Positions 4,400 through 42,463 of a stretch of 64,000 bases of DNA are shown in pieces. The notes under the pieces are model-generated. The model was not told where the DNA came from, did no database searches, and saw only the letters and a program-made list of their open reading frames with translations. Source of the DNA: Cenococcum geophilum 1.58 (Eukaryota > Ascomycota > Dothideomycetes > Gloniales > Gloniaceae). Each line of letters opens with the position of its first letter. Within the stretch, counting starts at the first letter, position 1. The position numbers and the translations under genes were made by a program. Location: the NCBI GenBank assembly GCA_001692895.1, contig KV748194.1, forward strand, positions 62,001 to 126,000, written 5' to 3'.

Positions 4400-5400
4400 A
4401 GGTGTTTAGGAAGTTGCTTAAATAGCTTTAAATTAACGGCGGCTTAAAGGATATGAAGCTTCTATTGGTAGCAGAGAAGCTATTAATATTCCTACTAATA
4501 TTTTATAATAATTAGTTATACTAATTGGTTTATAAGGAAACGTAGTACGCCTTATTAATAGTTAAGGAGTAGGTAATATATACGTTAATATATTCTTTTT
4601 ACTAGAGCTAATTTAGTATATAAAGTAGTATATACAGTTCTTCCTGGGCTCGTTAAATTGTATAAGGAGCTCGTTAATCTACTTAAAAATACTATATTAG
4701 ATAAGATTGTAGATAACCTAAAGCAATATCTATTCTTCGCCGATTGTATTAGAGCGCTTAATGGTACGCATCTACCGATCGCGATTTAAGGTGGATATAA
4801 GTGGCAAGCTCCTTAGCGCGGTAGGAAAGGTCTATTAACGCAAAACATTCTAGCTGCTGTCGATTTTAATATAAACTTTATATACATTCTAGCTGAGTGG
4901 GAAGGTACCGCTTATAACTATAAAGTTATTAATTTAGCAAAGAAGAAAGCCTTTAAAGCTCCGTAAGGTTAATATTATCTTATTAATACTAGCTATTTAA
5001 ATACCTCTATAACGTTAGTACTATACCGAGGCGTTTAATATTATCTTTGTAAATAAGCTTAGGCAAATATAAAGCTATAGAATATAAAGGAGCTATTTAA
5101 TCTACGTTATATAGGGCTAAGAAATGTTATTAAGCGTACCTTTAAAGTCTTTAAAAGACAATTTTAATACTTTAAGGCAGTAAGATAGAACCTCCTTGTA
5201 GTAATATAGATTCTTTTAGTATATATATTAACCGTAGTGTATAACTTCTTAAATATATATAATTCGGATAATCTAGAGGACTACGGTGTAGTAGAGGATA
5301 AGGAGATTAATAAGGGAAACGCGTAGATGGTAGAGAAAAAGAGTGAGGTTGCTATAAATTAAAGACAGGATGAAATTGCACGGCTTATATAGAGAGGCTA
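4400..5400 (+). pseudogene. Harbinger DDE (DDE_Tnp_4) transposase, RIP-inactivated
   Basis: Frame reading from about 4640 gives the signature blocks of fungal PIF1-like transposases: 'ADCIRALNGTHLPI' near 4740 (first Asp block, here Asn for Asp), 'KGLLTQNILAAVDF' (VDF carrying an acidic residue), 'AEWEGTAYNYKVI' (usually GWEGSAHDSRV) and 'YYLINTSYLN' (usually YYLVDAGY). Stops occur throughout, mostly at positions expected to be Gln or Trp. It is not functional. Confidence 0.75.
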
Positions 5401-18292: not shown

Positions 18293-19100
18293 ATGGACTG
18301 GCAGAGGCGGGGATTGTGTATGACTGAGGTGTTCGACCCGGTGTATAGATACTGGCGTGCTAAAGAGGCGTTCGATGGTTCTTGTTGTGCGATTATGGTA
18401 TAGCAGCATTGCTTGGTGTTGGTTTAGAAATCATGATGGGTGTCGGACATATGAGATAAGGGATATATACGATAATAATGCCGACTATGCTCTAAATTCT
18501 GAGGTAATTAATGTCGTGACTGCTAATATATTGATACGGATACAGCTCTTGTCCACTATTTTCTGGAAAATTAGTAGTATATTTTGAAATCTACAGATAA
18601 GGAAATTCACAAGAGTTTCAGCGTTCTGCGGAAAAGATTCTGCGGAAGTCACTGTATGGCCCCTGAATATCTTCACAAATTTATTCCGAGAGTGACAAAG
18701 TCGCCAAATATATTTGAAGTGTCCACCGGTGCTTAATTAGCGAAGAGCATACGGTCTGTAGGCATACATTCTGCTATACATACTTCCGAGTACGGAACAG
18801 GTCTGCCCAATATTCAATGAGCTATCCTTCTTCTTGGTGCCGTAGTAATGGTCTGCAGTATTTCAATCCATGGTCCGGCTCTCCGCATACTCATTACCTT
18901 GCTCTTCTACCTCCCAATCGCTTCTTCAACACTTTTAGGTTCTGGCCGAGTTCTCAAACCCCATAATCCTTTAGTCAAGTTGAATCCTCCAGTTATTTCA
19001 TCCCCACAAATAACCCCAACCTCAACCACCCCCTTCTAACTCAGACTGAAATCTGACAGTTGCTAGCTCCCTAGCACTCAGCACTCGCCTGCAAAACACC
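18293..19100. other. Intergenic, convergent 3' ends
   Basis: Lies between the 3' end of the hydrolase gene and the 3' end of SAP18. A/T-rich around 18480-18680. No supported gene; the 63-codon frame at 18848 has no features beyond a hydrophobic stretch. Confidence 0.5.
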
Positions 19101-20002
19101 TCACCACCCCCTCCCTCTCCCTCTCCCCCTCCCATACCCNCCCCCAGGCGGCCCTTGTGGCACTTCTCCCCTCCTCCACTCCCCCGGCGGGACTCCACCT
19201 CTCCCGCCCTCATACCTCGCGCCGCCCCTACCCCTAAAGCCTCCATAATCCCCTCTACCCCCATACTCCCCACGGCCCCCATAGTCCCCTCTCCCCGCGA
19301 ACCCATTCTCCCTCCCCGCTCCCCCTCCACGCCCTCCATACGCGCCCGGCGCACGATATCCCGCGCTAGCCGGCGGCGGCGGCGCCGCGACCGCGCCATC
19401 AGGCAGAGGCGGGAAAATAGCACAGGAGATATAATCGCCGATGACGAAGCGGGCCGACGCAAGCGTCTTCTCCGCATCGCCCTCCAGGCCCTCCAGCAGC
19501 GCCTTGACACCGCCGCCGCCGCCACCCGCACCACCGCTCCCCGCGGCTTCGTCGCCGTTTTCGTCGCCCGCGTCCTCGAGGCTGGCGCTGCCGGCGCCGA
19601 CGACCACGCTGCCGAGCTCTTTGGACAGGTACCGTCCTGGGCCGGGTCGGGTGGCGTCGCGTGTGTCGGGGAAGATGAGGCGGAAGGCGAGGCGGGTGCC
19701 GATGGCGGGGGCGGGCAGGAGCGAGGGGAGGGCGGTTAGGAGGAGGTGGGTTAGTTCGCTGAGGGTGCAGGTCGGCCAGGTGTAGATCTGCAGGTGGGGA
19801 GGAGACGCGGAGGTGTGGGGGGAGAATTCGTCGAGGCTGGTGGTGGGTTAGTTTAGGTGGTTTATTGGGTAGAGAAGAGGGAAGGGGGGTTGAGGGGGGA
19901 GAGAACGTACCGGTGGAATGTCCCGTTTCTGTAGTAAAGCTTAAGGAGGAAGGGCGTGGTTATTTGGCGGTCGATTTTGGGGGTGAGAGATTGCGAGGCC
20001 AT
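19101..20002 (-). CDS. sap18: SAP18, Sin3-associated histone deacetylase complex subunit
   Basis: Two exons: 20002-19911 and 19836-19101, with a 74-bp intron (GTACGT...CAG); 275 aa. The conserved core runs from the N-terminus ('TTPFLLKLYYRNGTFHR' then 'LDEF') through 'QIYTWPTCTLSELTHLL', 'RLAFRLIFPD', 'GRYLSKELGSVV' to 'DARFVIGDYISCAI'-type sequence (here 'SARFVIGDYISCAIFPP'), which is diagnostic of SAP18. The protein bridges Sin3-HDAC and, in animals, the ASAP RNA complex. A Gly/Ala linker sits inside the domain, and the last 80 residues form an RGG/YGG-rich tail, likely RNA-binding. One ambiguous base (19140) falls in the tail. Its start is 284 bp from the divergent PRP18 start, so the two may share a promoter. 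Confidence 0.93.
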
Positions 20003-24366: not shown

Positions 24367-26456
24367 AACAGGAACATAATTGTGGTGATATCAATAAAGG
24401 CTATCTGCCAGTCCCGACTGCTGCAGCAACAATAAACAGTTGCCACCACAAAGAGGATTTGTGGGGTCTTGTCCTGTAGTGACATGGATCCAAAAACAGA
24501 ACGGAGGCCGGGCCATAGTGAGAAAAACGCCGAGAAAAATCAGGCAAAAACACGAAAGTTGATAACGGCAGACTTGGACTGATTAGGCACTTCAATTTGA
24601 CACTCGTGATCAGCATACATAGAAACCGGTTTCTGGCATAAGGCCTTCTTAGGCGGCCTTGGAAACCGGCGGGGAATAGACAGATAAGGCGGCGTCGCCA
24701 GAGCAGCGGAAGCTCCTCCAACGGCCAAGCCGCGATACATAGGTTGAATCACCCTTGGATATCCTGTATGGCTGCTATAGAATTCGGCCCCCTGTTTGCA
24801 CATCAACAACGGTTTGTTTGGAGGCCTGAGGATCGTCTATCGAACGAACGGGATGAACCGGCAGCTTTGTCTAGCAACTTTGACCCACATCACATTCAGG
24901 CAATTGGGATACTGCATCGCACAAGGCATAGCTGACCCCTCTCGAAGGTTCGACTTAAAGGGCAAGACTTCGGTCAAGTCTTCAGCTCAGGCGCGAGAAG
25001 CGAGACATGAGACGCAGGAACAAGAGCATAAGCTTAAAGTAGTACGAATATGACGGTCTTACTGACCGACGCTGTGCCAATGGTGATGAGCGGTGTTTGG
25101 GTGATGATGGCCGGAAGTAGAAGCGAAAGGCGCTGCGGGTCAAGATCTTCCCCAGCACTGCCAGCCACCTGTGAACCCTTAAGCTTCCCAACACCCTCCA
25201 TTGCAGCCTCCTTCTGCACCATCCATGTTTTTCGATAAGATACCCTGCAGAGATCGCGTCGTGGCAACCGATGAGCAGTCAACTGCGAGGCTTTCGTCCG
25301 TCAGTACCCATCTGCGAGAATGGGTGGCACGGCAGCAGCAGGAGCAATATCACTCTACCTATCCATCCTCTGCCCCACCGCCAGCCCTTCTCAGCCGTTC
25401 CTTGCACAGATGCTAGCGGAACTAAGGCTTTTAGAGTTTTTTCCAGTGGTTACGTCAAGCTCCAGGAGAATTCTTATCGTGAGTTGAGCTTGCAAACAGT
25501 TCCCTATCACTTCCACGATGATGATCGGGGTGATCGCCAGGTGGGTCGTCTATTCTTAGAGTATTGTATGGTGACCTTCGACGGCGTTGCTTGTCCATGG
25601 GCACGAGACAAGGGGGAGGTGCCATGCAAGCCTTGGTTGCATCATTGGGAACTCGCCGCCAAATGAGAAACATGCTGCACACCGAATCTGGTAAGTTTCA
25701 CTCATTTTTTTTCGCCAGTGTACCCGAGTGCATAGAAGCTATTATGACTATACAGTAAGCGGTATTGTTTTCCGTTGCACGAAAAGTCCATTCTATTTCA
25801 AAGTCTCGGGCGTTTTTTCATCATAGAGATGTTTTCTTGCCTTTCGTCGTGGATACACCAATGCCGATGATGAGGGAACCAAATTTTTATCAGTTGGCTG
25901 GCGTGAGGGGCAGTCGGCTGCTTGGCAGTTGTGCAGCCCGCCTTCGTGCCATGTGGCCGCTTACATCCCTGTCGGCCGGCCGTTTATCCGGTGTTTACTG
26001 GGCAACGATTCGACTTTTAGCCGTTGGCTAGACTCTCCAGGGAGCATGGCCCTACCATATCGATACCAAAAGTCACTCAGCGGGCCCACTCATACGAGGA
26101 TACTTCTCTATGCGGTAGAGCGCTCCAGCATTGCGGCTCCACTAACAACGTCAGAGCGCATGCAACCCTGCCAGTGTTAGACGATATGGTCACACATAAT
26201 CAACATCCTAATGGGATGTTACGGTGGGCTGGGCACCTTGTGTTTATAGAGGCCGCCACCCTCTTTCATCTCCAGGGGCCTCCATCTGCAATCTATCGTT
26301 TCAGAGCGTTCAAACCAGCCATCGGTTTGTTCACCAGCCTCTCCAAACAGAAGTAACTCGCTCGCTACGGTTCTTCTGTATCTTTCGTTTATATCAGATC
26401 GTCTTTCACTTGCGGTGTGTTCAATCCGCAAATCTTAAGCAACAGCATAATCGACT
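24367..26456. other. 2.1-kb stretch without a supported gene
   Basis: Several 70-130-codon frames occur (for example 25271-25666), but none shows a known domain, a signal peptide or plausible splice partners. Composition is balanced, so this is not transposon debris of the RIP type. The last few hundred bases presumably hold the promoter of the wall-protein gene. A non-coding transcript or an orphan gene with introns cannot be excluded. Confidence 0.4.
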
Positions 26457-27866
26457 ATGGTCAAACTTTCGCTCTCACTTTTGTCCCTTTTGGGAGGTGC
26501 GTTGGCGTGGGACGGTGGCTATTTTCCTGAAGAGGTTGAGACTCTCGTCACGTATACGACGACGACTGTTTGCCCTATCACGTATTTTCACGGGCCATCA
26601 ATTATCACGACTCTGACAACGTCGACCATCACCATCACCAGCTGCAAGTGGGGATGCTATCACTCTACTCCTCCGTATACGCCCCCTTACACACCTCCGG
26701 TCGCCCCATCATCAACTCCCTACACCACCACTTCAACCCCTCCTCCGCCTCCACCACCGACGTCGACGCCGTGCACGACTTCTTCGTCGACTCCACCGCC
26801 GCCACCTCCTAGCTCGACTCCTCCTCCACCGCCGCCACCTCCTAGCTCAACTCCACCTCCCCCACCACCTACCTCTACGCCGTGCACGACTTCGTCTAGC
26901 ACGCCTCCACCTCCCCCACCTCCGAGCTCGACTCCGTGCTACACGAATTCGACTTCAACTCCCCCTCCTCCACCCCCAACCAGCACCCCGTACACGGCCT
27001 CGACTCCTCCTCCACCGCCTCCTCCCCCGAGCTCTACTCCGTGCTACACGAATTCGACTTCAACTCCCCCTCCTCCACCCCCAACTAGCACCCCGTACAC
27101 GGCCTCGACTCCTCCTCCACCGCCTCCTAGCTCGACTCCGTGCACCACTTCGACTCCTCCACCACCTCCTCCCCCAAGCTCTACTCCGTGCTACACGAAT
27201 TCGAGCTCGGCTTCGCCGCCGCCACCACCACCAACTTCTACGCCATGCAGCACATCGACTCCTCCACCTCCACCACCACCGACTTCAACTCCAATCTACA
27301 CGAATTCTAGCACCACTCCGCCACCGCCGCCATCAACCTCTACTCCGTGCGAAACAATCACGACCACGATTACCACGGTCACAACTACCGTCTGCCTAAC
27401 CACGACAACAATTACCATCACCAGCTGCTCGCACGGCTGCACTGAGTATACGACGACGACAGTTGTTCCAATTACTTCAACTTATACAACTGTTTGTCCA
27501 ACCATTTACACGATCCCGATAACTACTCTCGTCCCAGCTCCCCCGTCCACTCCAGTCCCTGTTTACTCTTCTCAGACTCCAATTATCTACTCCTCCCAGA
27601 CACCAATTGTCTACTCTTCCGAGACACCAATTGTCTACTCTTCCGAGACACCAATTGTCTACTCTTCTCAGACACCAATTGTCTACTCTTCTCAAACACC
27701 AATTGTCTACTCTTCAGTCCCGGTCTACACTCCTCCAGCCACCACTGTTGCCCCAGTCGTCTCTGCGACAACTTCCGCTCCGGCTCAGTTCACTGGTGCC
27801 GCTGCTGCCAATAAACCGATCGTTGCCTTCCTCGCTGGCGCTGTTGCCTTGGTCGCTTTAGTCTAA
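26457..27866 (+). CDS. Pro/Thr/Ser-rich GPI-anchored cell-wall protein
   Basis: Single exon, 469 aa. A signal peptide (residues 1-17, Leu-rich, ending ALA) is followed by a Thr-rich segment with a 'TTTVCPIT' ... 'TITSCKWGC' motif, which returns near residue 310 as 'TTTVCLTT' ... 'TITSCSHGC': two matching cysteine blocks bracket the middle. Residues about 80-300 are poly-Pro runs (5-8 Pro) alternating with Ser-Thr-Pro. Residues about 366-420 are an 8-residue repeat YSS(Q/E)TPIV. The end 'AAAANKPIVAFLAGAVALVALV' is a typical GPI-anchor signal. The mature protein should be heavily O-glycosylated and sit at the plasma membrane or wall; its role (adhesion or structure) is inferred from composition only. 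Confidence 0.85.
   Translation: MVKLSLSLLSLLGGALAWDGGYFPEEVETLVTYTTTTVCPITYFHGPSIITTLTTSTITITSCKWGCYHSTPPYTPPYTPPVAPSSTPYTTTSTPPPPPPPTSTPCTTSSSTPPPPPPSSTPPPPPPPPSSTPPPPPPTSTPCTTSSSTPPPPPPPSSTPCYTNSTSTPPPPPPTSTPYTASTPPPPPPPPSSTPCYTNSTSTPPPPPPTSTPYTASTPPPPPPSSTPCTTSTPPPPPPPSSTPCYTNSSSASPPPPPPTSTPCSTSTPPPPPPPTSTPIYTNSSTTPPPPPSTSTPCETITTTITTVTTTVCLTTTTITITSCSHGCTEYTTTTVVPITSTYTTVCPTIYTIPITTLVPAPPSTPVPVYSSQTPIIYSSQTPIVYSSETPIVYSSETPIVYSSQTPIVYSSQTPIVYSSVPVYTPPATTVAPVVSATTSAPAQFTGAAAANKPIVAFLAGAVALVALV
27550..27716 (+). repeat. 24-bp in-frame tandem repeat in the wall-protein gene
   Basis: About 6.5 copies of a 24-bp unit (TCTTCCGAGACACCAATTGT plus 4 bases) encode YSS(Q/E)TPIV. Units are nearly identical, so copy number is likely to vary among strains. 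Confidence 0.85.
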
Positions 27867-28499: not shown

Positions 28500-31400
28500 A
28501 TGGATCAGATTGATGCCCAAAACTTGTCCGAGCGGCTTCAGTGGGAGCAGCAGGACTATTGGCTTCATATCGAGTCCTCGTCTCCTTTGGACAAGTACCC
28601 GGGTTCGTAATCTTTGCCGCGAAGCAACCTTCGGAACACCCTACTAACACTTTGGGATTTACAGCAAAGCAACATGCTCAGCGGGTCGCACAGAAGCTTG
28701 ACGTCTCAAAAGGATTAATATATCTTCCAGGCGCTTCAACCACATACTTTCAGGACAGCGATCAGTCCCAGCCCTTCCGTCAACTTCGATACTTTTATTA
28801 CCTCAGTGGGTAGGAGCTGTGCCTCTTCCCGCAACCCCAACCATATCTGACTGGAATATAGCGTAAACGAAACAGACTGTCACTTAACGTACGATATCAG
28901 CCAGGATGTCCTCACCCTTTTCATTCCAAGAATCGATCCAAGCACTGTGATCTGGAATGGCCGTGGTTCTACGCTTGCCGAGGCTTACGACAAGTACGAT
29001 GTGGACGCCGTCTGCTACACTGCCTCGCTGCCCAACTTCGTCAAACGATGGCCAATGCTTCATGAAGGGACTATCTATGTTTTGCACCCAAACCAGGGGG
29101 CCATACCAGGACAAGATAAGCTCTCGCGAGTGGATTCCGCCCAGCTTCAGATAGCTGCAGATGCAGCTCGAATGATAAAAGATTCCCACGAGGTCAAGCT
29201 GATCAGAAAGGCTAACGAGATTACTGCAAAAGCCCATCGTGAAGTTCTCTCCAACATTTTGAAGTTCAAGAACGAAGCTCAAGTTGAGGCCATATTCCTC
29301 GATGCGTGTGTTGCTGAAGATGCAAAGCATCAAGCTTATGAAGTTATCGCTGCTTCCGGAGAAAACGCTAGTACTCTCCATTATATCAAGAATGACGAAC
29401 CACTCGAGGGTCGACAGCTCATGTGCCTTGATGCTGGCTGCGAGTGGGAGTGCTATGCTAGTGATGTTACCAGAACGTTTCCGATATCTGGGGCCTGGCC
29501 GTCAAAGGAAGCTAAAGAAATATACGATCTAGTGCAGAATATGCAAACTGCATGTATCTCACGTCTTGCTCCAGGGGTCAGATTCCTGGATTTACATGTT
29601 TTGGCCCATCAGATAGCTATTCAGGGTCTGATGAACCTGGGTATCCTTCGCAACGGCGACCCAGAGGAGATTTATAGAGCCGGAACATCTCGCGCCTTCT
29701 TTCCTCACGGCTTGGGCCATCATCTGGGTCTCGAAGTTCATGATGTAGGGCAGAAATCGCTGATGGCGGTGACTAGTGACAACGAGTCAGACCCTACTGC
29801 CCCAGAGGTAAGTACATGTAAACAAGAATCCCTTAAGCGCAATGCCTTATTATTTCATAGCCGAAATCAAAATATCCTGCAAACTATTATCTTCCAGTAT
29901 ACCACAGTGAGATGTGCAGATCTCCCGTGGACCCCCAAAGCAGTAGCTTGGAGGAAGGCATGGTCGTTACTGTTGAGCCCGGAATGTAAGTCGCCAATTC
30001 ACTGGCTAGTCTCATCATACTAAAAACAATACTATAGCTACTTCTCTCGTTATGCACTCAGCACTGTGTACCTTCCTTCACCGATACATTCTAAATACAT
30101 AAACAAGGAGGCACTCCTTCGATACCTCCCTGTCGGCGGAGTACGCATCGAGGATGATATTTTAATCACCTCTTCTGGCTATGAAAATTTGACGACAGCT
30201 CCTAAAGGAGAGGAAATGCTCAGGATTATCAAAAGCCAGGATAACGATGCTTCACAGGCAATTACTGCAACCGAAACAGACGAGGTTCTAGTGGTTGTAC
30301 CTACAAAGATAAAGGATTTAGAGTGGTTGAATACTTTTGATACACCGACGCAATCTGCGAGTCGTACTTCGCATCCTGCCCGAAGTACACAACCGAAATT
30401 TGACTCCAGATTTATTGAGAAAACACCGAATCCACGCTCTCAAAACACAATTACCGAGAGCCAACAATATAAACTACCGATTCCGCCAGTTTGTCAGAAC
30501 GCCACTCCGGATATACCAGCGAAACGCCATATCCTGGAGAGCAGAAAAATCTCTCAACAAGAGGGTAAAGCAATAGAAACTTCCAACTGGCTTAGTAAAT
30601 CTTCCGAACCCCAACTGGAAGTGTCTCCAGTAAGTAGACCTAAGCTTTCAAGACTTCGAAGCTGCACTCCCTGCAAGAAGAGAATGGTACGTTCATCTTC
30701 CAATGGAAGCCCTCTTTAACTTACTAACTCTCTGGTTCATTCAGAATCGCTGTTCCGGGACAGTGCGAAGGGAGGATGATGATCGATTGAAAGCTGAAGC
30801 CTGCCTTCAGTGCATCCATTTTGGGCTTGCACATGAATGCAACAGTGCTCTTAGACCGCCCTCAGTGCGCCGTATGCCACCCGCAAATACCTACTGGGAT
30901 GGACTGGATGCGTTAGGATTTGAAGATACTCGTCCCTCTGAGTGCACACCGAAGCCGCCTAAACTTCCGCAAAAGCCGTTAGCCTACCGTCACAGCCTAC
31001 CATGCCTTAAACCACAGCATCCGGATAATCAACCACAGCCCCAAAGCCCTGATCGTAATACAGATCCTTACAGACATATGAACGAAATCCGGTTCAATGT
31101 GCGGCCTTCTAGCCTTTCCTCAACCACTGAACGGGGGCCTCGCGAGTCTCTCCCGGACATCAGAGAAGAAGCTGAGGTTCCTACAAAGAAGTTTGAACTG
31201 CCACATCGCCTATCTAGGCCAAGAAGTGAGATATGGCAGCCAAGGATAGTACCGCCTTCCCCGCTTCATTCGAGGCAGCCCCCGGCAACTTTTCGCTTTG
31301 CGCAACCACCTCAGGCGTGGGGCGCGTTGAGAAACCGCATGAACTTAGATCCTCCTGCGGTACCCGAATGGCTGTCCACCGAGCTTAACTCTCTCCGCTG

Positions 31401-31656
31401 GAAATATCCAAATTGCGATATTGCGCCAACTATGCTCTATTCAGCCGTCGATGCACAAACTTCTCAAGTATTGAACCTCGACTCTGAACTTCCGCCCCCT
31501 GCAAGCCCTGGTGTTTTGTATACATATCTACCCCGCATTCGGTGCACGGATTGCCCAGGAAAACTTTACACGCCGCCTGTAGAAAATTTCGAAATTCATT
31601 TGAAAAATCGGTTCCACAAGGCTGCGGTTGCAAGGCGTCTTAATCAAATGGGATAG
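28500..31656 (+). CDS. M24B Xaa-Pro aminopeptidase with C-terminal zinc-finger/Snf5-tail-like extension (possible fusion)
   Basis: Six exons: 28500-28602, 28665-28809, 28862-29807, 29861-29985, 30038-30686, 30745-31656; total 2880 nt, 959 aa. Residues 34-500 are an aminopeptidase P: N-terminal creatinase-like domain, then the pita-bread fold with all five metal ligands Asp273, Asp284, His369 ('HGLGHH'), Glu437 ('VEPG') and Glu478. It removes N-terminal residues next to proline and uses two Mn2+. The frame stays open past the usual end (about residue 510), crosses a disordered linker and reaches C-x2-C-x6-C-x16-C-x2-C-x8-C (residues 649-688), a Zn2Cys6-like pattern split by an intron with a TACTAAC site. 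The last 130 residues ('[16 protein letters not shown]' ... '[14 protein letters not shown]' ... '[10 protein letters not shown]') resemble, from memory, the tail of fungal Snf5 homologues. Alternative: two genes, with the second start hidden near 30250-30660. Confidence 0.75.
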
Positions 31657-32404: not shown

Positions 32405-34683
32405 ATGGAAAACAGAATTGAACAACCAGGTCAGAACACGGACAACATGGATCAATCTACCACTGCACTAAAGAAAAGCAGGGCAAAATCTTGCACAGCG
32501 TGCCGACAAGTGGAGGTAGGGCTACTTTGCGCCTCAGACCAGCCGATCCCACGTATAAATGCAATCAATACTGATCTAAATATAGCTCCAATGCGACGCC
32601 AAGGATACCTATCCAGCGTCATGTTCGAGGTGCAGGGCAGGTAATCATGACTGCAAGATGGACTCGACCTTTAAACGAATCGCCACTAGGCGGTTCGTTC
32701 ACAGAACTCTAATTTTCGGCGAACAGATTCTGAATGAGTGAATAGGCGTGTCGAAGATCTTACCAATCAGCTCAATAGTGTTCAAAGAGCCCTCGCGCTA
32801 GAGCAACCAACGGATATCCCGGAAGGTAGTGATATGCATCTATCTCATCACCATCAGGCTTCAGCTGCTCTTCCAACGCCCTCTGTGGAACAGCTGTCAT
32901 TGCACCCCTTTCAAAGCGCCCCTCAGGTCGTCACCCCTTCTAAGAGCTCTTCATCAAGCACCGCATGGTTCGACGCAAACTCACTAGTTTCAACACCAAA
33001 TTTCCCTCACTATTGGGTTATCGAAGGGATCACAATTGAGCACAGCGTTGTTGTCGATATTTTCCAACAGTAAGTCTTCCCGTAATGGTCTCAGCAACCT
33101 AACTCACGAGTTTGAAGATTTAATGACTTTTACTATCCCCACCTTCCAATTATTGAGCCAGTCACGTCTCTGCAGGACCTATACAGTTCAAGCCCCGCTC
33201 TATTTTGGAGTATTGTGCTTACCGCGAGTCGTCATCACCCTCACTATGCAGTAGTGTATGAGCAACTAAAAGACCCCTTTCGGCGACTTATCGGGCGCAC
33301 TTTAAGCTCGCCACTCAATATTCTCAGCGATTTGCAGGCCGTGCTTATTACTTGTCACTGGCCTCTGGAGATTAAACTGCAAACTGAGGATCCGAGCTGC
33401 ATGCATTCTGGGATGGCCATTAATGCAGCCTTGCAGATGGGTTTGGACAAGTCTGAAGACGAAGTGCTGTTTGGCTATCGTAGAGCGAGGTACTCTCTAA
33501 AGAATTTCAGTCAAAAGTATAGCGTGATGACTTGGATGAAATGCTTCCAGATTGGCACTCAGTGAGTCTTGCCGCTAGTTCCTACGTTCAATTTGGATAT
33601 TTAAATACCATCGGGTTTTAACTGACCTCAATTTAGGCTCAGTTCATGGCATGGATTGCCTCCCCCTATTAGTTCTGCATCAAGTCTTTAGAAACTCTCT
33701 GTGCTTTATGACGAAGCTAGCATCCCGAATGAGATGATTGCAATGACAGAGATCCAGCGGCAGTTCGCCCGATTTACAAACATACTTGAAGAATCTGGCA
33801 CTGAAGTTTCAGTATCTCTTATACAAATCTTTGCTCAGGATCTGGGTGATATCAAACGACGATTTTCAACCTCGTGGTCGGCAATCAGCGGATATTAATT
33901 TGCAGGGAGTAAAGCTATACTTATTTGCTCTTCCTCTCGTATCGATTGATCAACAGCACATTAGGGCTCTGCGCGGCTTAGATTCTGCAGCATTTCTCTG
34001 CACTATTTTGCAATGGGGACATGTGGCTGCCATACGGCTCACCCATCTCATGGTTGAGCTGGGTGGTTTGCGCGGCGTTGATGATCCGTCGTGTGGAACA
34101 TACGAGAGCGGAGGATGTCCTCTACTTGCGCATCCTAAGCACCATTTCCGAGTCGCGTTCTTCGCCTGCACCATGCTTCTCAAATATCTTGACTGTAACC
34201 GGGATGCGTCTCCAGCCGATAAAGAAGCCGCTCGCAATGCAGTGTCCACAACGTATCAGCTCTTCAACAGATTTCAATCTTCATATCAGCATGTACGGGC
34301 AGCGAAAATGATGGAAGTCCTGGCCCGTACGGTTGTACCAGACCGGGGAAGAATGGTGACACGTCAAAACTCGATTGGGAGCTTCGCTCTTATATAACGC
34401 GATCCGGACAGCGGCAAAAATTCGAGGCCGCCTGAACGATCCGGAGTTTTCCATCACTGCGACCCCTTCGAACAGCGCGCCTTCTGCGACGGACGGAATG
34501 GATCAGGGCATGAGGACAGTCGCAGATTTTTCTCAAAGTGCTGACATGATGTCCCAACAAGCTACGGCCTCTGGCCACAGCTTTCCTTGGGGTCTGTGGG
34601 ACGATGAATTGTTTGATACGCTAGGCTTTGGTTGGAATGACCAGCCCTATCCTAACATGTCTGGGAATATGGATTTTCTATAA
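32405..34683 (+). pseudogene. Zn2Cys6 fungal transcription factor, degraded
   Basis: Spliced exons 32405-32515, 32586-32692, 32746-33069, 33118-33561 and 33637 onward give a Zn2Cys6 domain (C-x2-C-x6-C-x9-C-x2-C-x6-C, the third Cys coming from exon 2), a short coiled linker ('RRVEDLTNQLNSVQ') and the fungal-TF middle region ('DFYYPHLPIIEP', 'PALFWSIVLTASRHHP', 'VLITCHWPLE', 'INAALQMGLDK'). An in-frame TAG at 33689-33691 interrupts conserved sequence ('PPPISS..SL-KLSVLYDEASIP'). Further frame changes are needed near 33885 ('SADINLQGVKLYL' is in another frame) and near 34375 ('GASLLYNAIRTAAKIRGR'). Three breaks outside plausible introns point to a pseudogene; sequencing error is the main alternative. 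Confidence 0.7.
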
Positions 34684-37077: not shown

Positions 37078-40000
37078 CTAGAAAAAATACGGCACAATAT
37101 CACAATCCTCAATGCGATCAAACTTCTCAAACTTCCCCTGCAACTTCCCTCCCCTCCCGAGGACCCCTTGCATCGCGCCTTCCGCCCCGTCACTACTCTC
37201 CAGCTTCCGCCACCCGCCCATCTGCGCCTGTTCCTGCACAAAAAACCCCATCGGCGGCGCGCTCTCGTGCTTCCTCGCAATCATGCCCTTTGCGCCCGGC
37301 GGCGGCGGCAGCTGTGGCAGCGGTGTCTGCGCGCCCAATATCACGGTCGCCTGGTCGCGGCGCTCGGCCTTGACGCCCGGCACGGGCGGGAAATAATAAA
37401 CCGGCCTTAAAAACAGCTCTGCGGAGCGCGGGAGGAAGACGGGGCCGCGGCAGACTTCAGCGAGGATGGGACCGGCGGCGGCGGCGGGGTCGGGGCGGAA
37501 GAGCGGGACCTTGATGACGTCGAGGGTCAGGCTGCTCTTGGTCAGATAGAGGGCCTTCGGGGTCCAGGTAAGGGAGTAAGGCAGGCGGGAGGCGTAGATG
37601 GAGACGGTGGTGCCGAGGGGGATGGCGGTGCGGAAGACGAGGCGGGGCGGGCTGCGTGCGGTTTTGTGCAGCGATAGGCGGTGCGTTGAGACTTGGAGCG
37701 TGAGGCGGAGAGGGGGCTTGGGCCCGCCTTCGATCGGCGGCTCGTCTTGCCGTGCTTCCAGGGCCGCTAGGTGCAGGTATCCGCCGCAGGGGGAGAAGTG
37801 CGTGCGGATGAAGATGTGGCAGCTGCGAGGAGCAGAACAGCGCAGCGTGCGGGTGAAATAGGTTTTATTGGAGTAGTCGGCGAAGAGGATTTCGCCGCCG
37901 CCGAGCGGCCAGACGAGGAGGGGGGAGGAGGGGTGGAAGACTGGAGGGGAGTTGATGAGTACGGTGGTGAAGAGGTGGCAGAATTGGAAGATTGGGACAG
38001 CGCTGCCGGTTGAGGTGTCGTAGACTTGTAGTTTAACTTGTGGACAGCCGTGGCGTCCGCAAGAAGCTCGTTGGTTTGAGAGAAGAGCCTCGAGCCTCGC
38101 ACTATCTTCGTTCTCTTCATCGCTAGACGCCTCGCTATCGGCACTCTGGGAGTAATCGCTTTCAAAAGATGATGTTTCAATGGATTCGTCTTCATCGGAT
38201 TCATCTTCTTCACCCAGCTTAGTACTTGCTGAACGAGTTGAAAGATCCGAGTCGTCAGCTTCAGAGTTCGCCTTGGATGTGAAGGAACTTCTAGCCTCGG
38301 TGTTGAGAGACTCTTCAGAGTCAGAGTCGCTGAGATCTGACATGTCTTTCATGACTATGTCAGACACACCGGAACCCCAGTCGTTCCACTGGTCTTCATC
38401 ATCAGTCTCGTCTGAGTGGTATTCAGTGGAGCCCTCGCTCCATGACTCGCGTGCGGAGTTGGTCTCAATGGACGATAGTTCCATATCGGAGTCCAGCTGC
38501 AAGGACTCCGCATCCAGCTCCTCTGGAAGACGATCCTGCGCAGTCTCTTCAATACTTTCAATACTTAGGGACGTCTTTGAAGAGTTGGCTGACGACAAGC
38601 TGTCAGCAATCGACGATGCGCCGTCAGACCGTTCCTCAGCGCTGGGCGTAGCGGAGGAGCCGTTCGCTTCCTGTTCATCGAGAGTGTTTGAAAAAAAGTC
38701 TACGAAATTTTGCATGATGAAGTCGTCTAGTCCAGTCGAGTAGAGGTCGCGATGAGTAACTTTTTGCCGTGTTGCTACAGCAAAGTAGCGTCCATTGCTA
38801 GCCAATTCCTCGAAGTAATTGAGCTCTTCCTCAAGACCACTCACGGGGACATAGTCGCCTTTTTCCGACAGTGAAAATATTTGAGAGCTTATGTGGAGGT
38901 ATTTGAAGTCGGGAGTACAAGAGACTGGGGGTGGGCGACCGATGATGGTAGTTCGTAGAGGGGCATCGTAGAGATTCCAGCTTTTCTTGGACACCGGAAA
39001 ATTCTGCGAATGCTTGAGCTTTGGCCTGTGGCCATTGAGACTCCATCTCTGACACTCAACATTCCACTGAGAATCATCTCCCTCTCTGTTTTGCCTCGTT
39101 AACCTTATGCAGATAGTCGAGAGTAGGCTCACTTACAGTTTCTGAAGTTCTATGACTTGCACTTCATTCCCTTGCTCATTAATGTGGTCAAAATAACGGC
39201 TAATATCGACTCCCTCCGGATTATTATCCTCCGCAAATAGGAAACTTTTGTACCGACTCTTGTTTTTATGGAGAAAATGTTTAGGCCCCAAGGAATTCCA
39301 AAGGCAGCGATCAAGATCCCCAGGGCAAGAGCCTTTACTTGAAGCATACTCATCCAGAAAGTATCCCCATTCTCCTACGAAGGTGTAGTATTGCTGGCTC
39401 AATGACCTCCCGAGCTCGCAATTCATTACGAACCATCGCGGGAAGACGCGTCTCAGGTGTAGACCAGCCCACACACGAGATGCGTTAAACCAGAAATTGA
39501 ATTGACCTTGGATTGAGTCAGCAATGAGAATATATTGTAGTTATTGACGACAGGTCTAGACCTCCTTGCCCCATGCGTTGTTGAAGCATACACTAAATTT
39601 TAGGTGGCTTTGTTGTGTCCTTGTGAATGACTCTTTATACTTGAGAAAACAGTATTGGCTTCTCCCCGTGTCAAGTTTCAAAATCCTTCAGCCTCGGAAG
39701 CCTACATGGAATAGCAAGGATTAAACAAATAGCCCCTCACGTGTATGCCTATTCAACGGCGCATTGGATATTCTGGTGTTATACAACCGGGGGGTAGAGA
39801 ATTGGGCATGCTTACCTTCTACAAGAAGGCTCTGTACTTGTAAGCAAGTTAAGAACTGACGAGACATGACGAACTGTTGAACTTTGTCGCACCGATCTTG
39901 TGTGCCGGCAACTTCATCAAGATGTTTGTCCCAATATTTTGCTGCGTAACCAAGCAGTTGGTGGGAATGGATGTCCTCGCCTAGCTCAGAATCGCCTGTG

Positions 40001-42463
40001 CTTGTGTAGAAAGTATCATCTTTCTTTATCAACAGCCGCCGGTATCGCGGCTGTGATAGATATTTGAGGCAAATCTCGGCAATCTCGGCGCTGGTAATTA
40101 AGCATTTACTGCATGGATCCTCCCCTTGTAGAATATTCCTTTTCTTCACGAGGTAGTTCCGAACGGATAAATGTGTCAGGGAGCACACGTTTCTGGATCC
40201 GTCCTGGTTCTCTTCTCTGACCTCAACAAGAGGAGCACAAAGTTCGAGAACTTTGTCCTTGAATAAGGTCTTCCGATTACTCATGTTTTTACCGTGCTCA
40301 GTTGAACACATACCCACGGCTTCGCAAAGCTCTTGGAGATAGAGAGGCCTTTTTGCATAAACAATGCAAGACAATATCTTGCTAAACATAGAGTGGTCAA
40401 CAAGGTTACGTGATCAGATTAAAAAGAATTCTTACCAAGTAAGGGCTCGATCCTCGGGCTTGATGTTCCGGAGCTTGCGGTCATAGTATACCTCATAGTC
40501 TTTGGGAAGACCCTCCTGAATCAGCTCTTGCACATCTTCCAAGCTTGCTGCGGCAGAGATGGCTTCAACCATGAGGGAAGCCCAGAGAAAATTCCCACGA
40601 GTTTGACGCTGCAAATCATTTAAAACCAATTTCTTTGTGCCAGGGTCAATATCCAGGGAGCGAATCTTAGGCAAAGAGCTTTTAAGGTATTCTTCGATGT
40701 CTGAGTTGTTGCGATGTTCATCCACAAGAATCATTTTGAAATGCTCAAGGCTTTGTCGTATCCAACGGCGGTCCTGGCTACTACACCACAACCGGATAGC
40801 AGGTGAGGTGGTACAAGCAAGTTCTTCGAAGAATTGGACGACCTCATAAACCTCAGGCCAATCGGTTCTTTCATCAAGACCGTCTATGAGTACGTACGCT
40901 GGCAACTCAGAAACAATGAACTCAATGAACTTCTTGATATTTTCGGGGTCGTCATTGTTCTTCCAGATGAATGCGTGAAGTTGGTCAGGTATGTCTTGTA
41001 ACTGATCATGAAGCTGCTCGAAAAGCTGCTCGGCGATATTCCGAAATGCTTGAATTGAGGAACACTGCTCATCAAATCTGTAATACTGATACGCAATACC
41101 TGAAAGTGATCTGGCTTCTTTGATATGGCGAACAACGGAGGCACAAAGAACGGACTTGCCCATTCCTGGCGGTGCAGTAAGCCAAAGCGTGGACGACTTC
41201 TCGTCAATCCACTCTTGGAAAGTATCGTCTTTCAGAAGCCAGCCACATGTTCCTGCTCCAGCGGCTTTCAGCGCCGATATCCCGCGGGCTTGGTGCCGGA
41301 AATTACTTTCATTGAGAGTTGACCCTTTGCGAAGCCATTCGTGTACTTTCCTTCGCCGAACGTTATCTTCATTACGTCGCCTTTCCTCAGCAAGCTCCAT
41401 TTTTTCTTTTCGCTGTTCTCTAATCCATTTCGAAATCTCATGTCTTGCTAGGCTTGCTTTGCGCCTTTCCCTTGCTGTCTCTTCTATCTCGTCCCGGTGC
41501 ATTTCCTCCTGAATGATTGGCACTAGTCTTGCGATGTTATTTGCGTCATCTGCTAGATTCTCTAGGATTTCGTCTAGCCTCTTGGTGCTTATAGAGGTCA
41601 CAGATCTCATCATTGCGACGGGAGCTAGAGAGATGAGTTGAAAGTAACTATTGAAAGGGATGCCTACCCACCAGATCGATCGCATTCTTCCACAACTTTG
41701 CTCCAAAAGCGGAGGATGCTCACGTAAGAGGCTCTTAGCACATCCTGCATCTCTGTAGAATGACCGAAAAGCTTCTCATACTTGGTTAACCGAGACAGTC
41801 GCTCAGTTAAGGCTTGGAGCTGAGACTTGATCTGGCTGTACAAGTCTACGTATCGTTTTGAGCACTTCGAAATAAAGTAAGTCCGTCTTCAATAATACTC
41901 AGCGAGTTCAGTGGAGCACATACTTCAATGATAGCTTTCAGCCCTCCCCACACTACTGCAGATGGCATGGGATCCGCTTGGCCTGCGCATTTATGTCAGC
42001 ATTAACCAATACTTCGATGCTCGGCAGTGGATCGAACAGAGGACGTCCAAAATTCCACTATAATCAACCATCACAGTAATTACTGGCTCTAAAACCTTGC
42101 GAATAATTCGCGTTGAAGTTTTATTTGAAGACTCCCGCTCGACCTGCTCCACAGATTGCAGAACATCTCCTGGAGTAACGGACTCGCCAGTATCCAAACA
42201 TTTCCGAATAAATTTCGGCTGTCTGTTTTTCGGGAACGAGCCCAGAAACTCATCGATGGCTCCCCGGAATGGTGAGTTTGCAAACGTGATCGTCGAAGGG
42301 GCCAACGTCAATGAGCTTTTATCCGTTAAATTTTCTCAATAATAAAAAGACATTGTACATCTAAGGAAATAATACCTTGCATATTGTGCCATACTGCATC
42401 TAGCACACGATCGCTCGTATCCAGTACCAAAAGGAGAGTTTCCGTTATCTCGTAAAAGCACTC
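37078..42463 (-). CDS. NACHT STAND (NLR-like) protein with long C-terminal region; 5' end unresolved
   Basis: Eight exons on minus: 42463-42376, 42334-42038, 41982-41924, 41864-41672, 41624-40436, 40381-39816, 39506-39137, 39085-37078; 4770 nt in one frame (1589 aa) without a start codon. The N-terminal part ('LVLDTSDRVLDAVWHNM', 'PFRGAIDEF', 'ADPMPSAVVWGGLKAIIE', 'YEKLFGHSTEMQDVLR') is the fungal domain usually found before NACHT (DUF7708-like by memory). NACHT: Walker A 'APPGMGKSVL', Walker B 'YVLIDGLDE', and 'TRGNFLWASLM' further on. The C-terminal 900 residues lack ankyrin, TPR or WD motifs I can recognise; they hold a 200-residue Ser/Asp/Glu-rich insert. STAND ATPases act as cytosolic switches in heterokaryon incompatibility and immunity. 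The first exon may have been lost: an inverted repeat lies directly upstream. One intron is long (309 bp). Confidence 0.82.

Follow-up and report, generated by a model that had tools for sequence, protein, structure and literature searches.

A fungal gene model joining an M24B Xaa-Pro peptidase to a Zn2Cys6-like motif and a Snf5 tail domain

Xaa-Pro dipeptidases and aminopeptidases P of the M24B type (PDB 5mc0, 1a16) are built from an AMP_N and a Peptidase_M24 domain and carry five metal ligands. PMC7804941 gives their shared motif, that of M24B aminopeptidase P and prolidase, as HxxGHxxGx3-8H. Three further described systems lie close to the locus considered here. Where M24 folds occur in chromatin proteins, they are known mainly as inactive scaffolds. 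The N-terminal domain of Spt16 is kin to aminopeptidase P and, to our knowledge, has no peptidase activity. It is treated as an M24-like domain of a chromatin protein, the FACT histone chaperone, in PMC4741192. Fungal Snf5, as seen both in a solved protein (PDB 23fj, chain S) and in the Snf5 of the genome analysed here, ends in a C-terminal tail of ~95 aa. A GATA finger is placed by one published study in an SNF5/INI1-domain protein akin to its SFH1 subgroup, and not in the Snf5 tail. Zn2Cys6 transcription factors (PF00172), finally, are marked by six ordered Cys and a basic first loop.

The window, that is, the whole stretch of 64,000 nucleotides that was analysed, contains a gene in which such parts follow one another in a single frame. 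This gene probably encodes one polypeptide of ~959 aa, comprising an M24B Xaa-Pro peptidase, a basic linker, a Zn2Cys6-like cluster, a proline-rich stretch and a Snf5 tail. The model of six exons and 2880 nt in one frame, put forward in a preliminary description of this DNA, was reproduced exactly: the spliced translation of 28500-31656 has 959 aa and a single terminal stop (Table 1). All five introns are of the GT..AG type, with lengths of 62, 52, 53, 52, and 58 nt. The two alternatives at the start of exon 4 use either an acceptor at 29911 (942 aa) or a donor at 29812 with an acceptor at 29897 (948 aa). Both remain open to the same stop. The residues that they alter all lie immediately ahead of the catalytic domain's second half, and the join is unaffected. 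In the genome as a whole (177.19 Mb in 162 contigs were searched), spliceosomal introns are present and Zn_clus has 83 or more matches, which makes a filamentous ascomycete the most likely source.

Table 1. Features of the peptidase/Snf5-tail gene, in positions of the window.
Feature	Position	Strand	Remarks
Exon 1	28500-28602	+	start codon at 28500
Exon 2	28665-28809	+	
Exon 3	28862-29807	+	most of AMP_N and first part of catalytic domain (D273, D284, H369)
Exon 4	29861-29985	+	E437 near end; start has two in-frame alternatives
Exon 5	30038-30686	+	peptidase end (E478), linker, zinc Cys 1-2; peptidase frame open throughout
Exon 6	30745-31656	+	zinc Cys 3-6, proline-rich stretch, Snf5 tail, stop
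Intron 5	30687-30744	+	GTACGT..ATTCAG
AMP_N domain, aa 38-145	28673-29048	+	Pfam E 4.1e-26; interrupted by intron 2
Peptidase_M24 domain, aa 196-484	29199-30170	+	Pfam E 4.8e-54; interrupted by introns 3 and 4
Linker, aa 506-648	30234-30662	+	basic
Zn2Cys6-like motif, aa 649-688	30663-30840	+	C-x2-C-x6-C-x16-C-x2-C-x8-C
Snf5-tail domain, aa 859-959	31351-31653	+	match to solved Snf5; holds C923-x2-C926-x14-H941-x5-H947
Possible alternative intron	30630-30744	+	frame-keeping; strong GTAAGT donor

Elsewhere in the window, an open frame of 471 aa at 26451-27866 consists of Pro/Ser/Thr-rich tandem repeats (units of 105 and 24 nt) between hydrophobic ends; it resembles a cell-wall protein and has no Pfam match. 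The first 14,000 positions have a GC content of 0.30-0.39, compared with 0.45-0.57 in most of the rest, and may be mutated repeat DNA; low-complexity ALYKVLYK-like repeats lie at 1867-2626. An open frame on the minus strand (40432-41775) is NLR-like, matching NPHP3_N and NACHT, and another one comes after it at 39721-40413. The stretch 19050-19739 includes one or more undetermined bases, seen as X in translation.

The peptidase half conforms to the M24B pattern throughout. AMP_N scores 91.5 bits against a Pfam cut-off of 24.6 and Peptidase_M24 183.7 bits against 23. The metal ligands D273, D284, H369, E437, and E478 are all present as assigned via alignments to solved prolidases, at the five positions that we take to be the ligands there, and the HxxGHxxGx3H motif of the M24B structures is found with H365, H369, and H376 in a stretch of 14 letters. 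Residues 38-484 are accordingly placed, by domain and ligand content, as a predicted complete M24B peptidase, which upholds the five-ligand enzyme that had been proposed from the letters alone. The solved structures most similar in sequence are those of Xaa-Pro dipeptidases, presumably human (5mc0 and others, with E near 1e-63); aminopeptidase P comes next. In contrast to these structures, the encoded protein continues for ~450 aa after the peptidase, whereas the 57 solved sequences listed, retrieved with aa 1-540 of the query only, are 348-517 aa in total length. It differs from Spt16, a chromatin protein that also has an M24-like domain, in that its peptidase ligands are intact. Ten PF00557 matches, counted per exon, were found in the genome. 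One relative (locus L015) shares 38% of its residues with the peptidase in an alignment of 437 aa and 54% in an additional one of 52 aa, and another (L021) is weaker; thus, the gene is not the sole one of its kind here.

At the other end of the protein, a segment containing HLKNR.H had been associated with fungal Snf5 tails, and database searches bear this out. Residues ~860-958 align with the C-terminal end of a solved Snf5 (PDB 23fj, chain S) at an E of 6.5e-18, and a two-sequence profile of the tail matches the same Snf5 with an E of 7.8e-35. One other copy of the tail was found in the genome, on the minus strand of contig C13 (C13:1037264-1037560), just downstream of the SNF5 domain (C13:1038472-1039152) of the genome's own Snf5. 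Since this Snf5 tail is in a different reading frame from that domain, it apparently forms an exon of its own. In the extracted locus (C13:1035500-1042500, L014), this tail occupies 4935-5252 of the reverse strand as a conserved domain of ~95 aa with CxxC...HxxxxxH. The tails of the fused gene and of Snf5 are 55% identical as proteins. In an alignment of 92 codons, positions 1, 2, and 3 are 65%, 73%, and 38% identical, respectively, and 10 of 29 fourfold sites match. Synonymous sites between the two tails thus look saturated while the protein is held, a pattern which indicates that the copy is old and under selection as protein.

Pfam scans gave no credible match for either tail (for Snf5's own tail, two at E 0.19 and 0.23). 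The CxxC and HxxxxxH pairs are separated by x14 in the fused gene and by x18 in Snf5, so that the loop is 4 residues shorter than in the own-genome Snf5 tail. C2H2 fingers of the U1/matrin-like kind range over C-x2-C-x12-15-H-x5-H. The spacing in the fused gene fits this range; the tail has no Pfam match, and a single-sequence AlphaFold prediction for aa 845-959 has a mean pLDDT of 46.6, too low to be usable. The Snf5 tail domain is perhaps a C2H2-type zinc finger. The SNF5 domain itself (PF04855) was absent from the gene in Pfam scans of both halves, and the two matches found in the genome lie on C9 and C13. The gene thus has one domain in common with Snf5 without being Snf5. A single 20-residue match to the tail in prokaryote genomes was taken as chance. 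The tail was not found in viral contigs or plasmids. All three collections are of a kind not meant for fungi, and the misses have no bearing on how far the tail is spread.

Between the two halves, the preliminary description had recognized a six-Cys zinc pattern split by a canonical intron. The six Cys (649, 652, 659, 676, 679, and 688) and the GT..AG intron 5 stand; membership in the zinc family does not follow, the PF00172 score being 9.6 bits for the second half and 12.2 bits for the trimmed region against a gathering cut-off of 21. As in Zn2Cys6 transcription factors, the Cys are in order, the first loop is basic (CKKRMNRC), and the pattern C-x2-C-x6-C plus C-x2-C-x6-8-C is present. Unlike in these factors, the Pfam score stays below the cut-off and the middle loop has 16 residues, which exceeds the range usual for the Zn2Cys6 Cys pattern. 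The element is best regarded as Zn2Cys6-like, not as a proven family member. Intron 5 splits the motif after C-x2-C-x4, in phase 0, between residues 656 and 657. An intron at the same place and phase occurs in the next downstream gene (32516-32585) and in locus L063; it falls after x6 in L064 and L065, and within the codon after the second Cys in L062. The position is recurrent but not diagnostic. The downstream gene itself, at 32405-34400 and in the same orientation, resembles a gene for a Zn2Cys6 transcription factor (CTACRQVE/LQC). A whole-genome search in which only the best candidates were scored found no second copy of the zinc region.

The join of peptidase, zinc motif, and tail is real in the DNA, and a fusion is the simplest reading of that DNA. 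From the peptidase end to the zinc motif, the peptidase frame is open for 144 codons. Of 20000 random sequences, 11 stay open over this length if the first-order chain is fitted to the linker, and 8 and 17 if it is fitted to the intergenic stretch on one side or the other; the first of these counts makes it improbable that the frame is open across the join by chance. Codon usage in the linker weakly favors the peptidase frame. The codon test, trained on 29 open stretches of at least 300 codons from loci of the genome, which were taken as coding, picks the true frame as the best in 351 of 425 coding windows. Four windows over aa 481-630 score 0.135-0.241 in the peptidase frame; off-frame windows of the training ORFs reach the lower value in 2.6% of cases and the upper in 0%. 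The whole linker scores 0.151, compared with a mean of 0.082 and a 99th percentile of 0.169, not passed, for its own base shuffles. Frame 3, interrupted by 10 stops within the linker, outscores the peptidase frame over aa 546-575 and comes close to it over 561-590. Over aa 621-650, a stretch outside the reach of the Zn2Cys6-motif control, the score is -0.029. Over the 40 codons of the zinc motif it is -0.077, and this low value is explained by the same drop in 14 other Zn2Cys6 motifs of the genome (mean -0.081), where the own frame scores best in 0 of 14. These controls are the 14 of 30 loci (L028-L057) with the Cys pattern near the middle, the other 16 having been dropped. A non-coding gap at aa 601-690, where the scores are matched by 2.4% and 1.4% of true coding windows, was considered and, over the motif itself, rejected because the low score there agrees with these controls. 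For the linker, the best other match in a whole-genome search (best candidates scored) had an E of 0.064, and no convincing second copy was found.

The modest codon support for the linker would suit two ordinary adjacent genes, whose apparent fusion would stem from an assembly error or from recent loss of the peptidase stop codon. Close same-strand neighbors are common in fungi, and in other fungi a single-domain peptidase of the same type has ~490 aa. This explanation is nevertheless improbable in view of the 144 open codons and because, apart from Met500, the range tested contained no separate start with convincing splice signals. The first CxxC lies in exon 5 and in the peptidase frame, so a separate second gene that includes the whole cluster needs either Met500 as its start or a splice into exon 5. 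Met500, the only Met from the peptidase end to the zinc motif in the peptidase frame, was also the only credible separate start for the second half in the range tested, and it lies inside the peptidase end. Among 14 routes from an ATG through one intron (45-120 nt) into exon 5, none combined a donor of at least 4/6 with a branch site and a YAG.

Met500 could instead serve a second product of the same locus. A full-length or peptidase-only mRNA would then be accompanied by a nested shorter mRNA from exon 4-5, translated from Met500 into 460 aa with the linker, the zinc cluster, and the Snf5 tail, and the two functions would reside in separate proteins with exon 5 in common. Met500 (30216) is in frame and has G at -3. 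Retention of intron 5 would end the peptidase at a stop at 30717-30719, and two further introns with good signals out of exon 5, 30595-30744 and 30630-30763, lead to stops 11 and 8 codons on, respectively; peptidase-only products by these routes are possible. The nested protein, however, would start inside the C-terminal segment of the peptidase, and we consider the arrangement unlikely, if a more serious contender than a pair of separate genes.

For the single polypeptide that we prefer, we infer transcription and splicing according to the six-exon model, with one product. Of the peptidase fused to a zinc-finger/Snf5-tail module that had been suspected beforehand, the single open frame and the tail, now identified by search, hold; the zinc element is Zn2Cys6-like, its family membership unproven. 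The architecture looks unusual, a new combination of known parts, and no such fusion was found in literature titles among the matches listed. One further splice form may matter for its function. Use of the 30630 donor with the acceptor of intron 5 would keep the frame, give 940 aa, and remove the first CxxC, that is, the first two zinc Cys. The resulting form without an intact zinc cluster might act as a switch between DNA-bound and free protein.

If the six Cys bind zinc and DNA, and if the Snf5 tail binds to chromatin or to a SWI/SNF surface, the prolidase would thereby be held at chromatin. Its role there might be local trimming of proline-containing peptides, or signalling of peptide or proline status to transcription. 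A catalytically intact prolidase inside a DNA-binding, Snf5-tail chromatin protein, which would couple proline-peptide turnover to SWI/SNF-dependent transcription and whose DNA binding would be toggled by intron 5 splicing, is a speculative and rather doubtful proposal. The gene suggests that the fungal Snf5 tail, for which the Pfam scans returned no credible family, is a movable domain found outside Snf5. The combination of an active-looking M24B peptidase with a zinc cluster and a Snf5 tail, if true, would tie peptide metabolism directly to chromatin.
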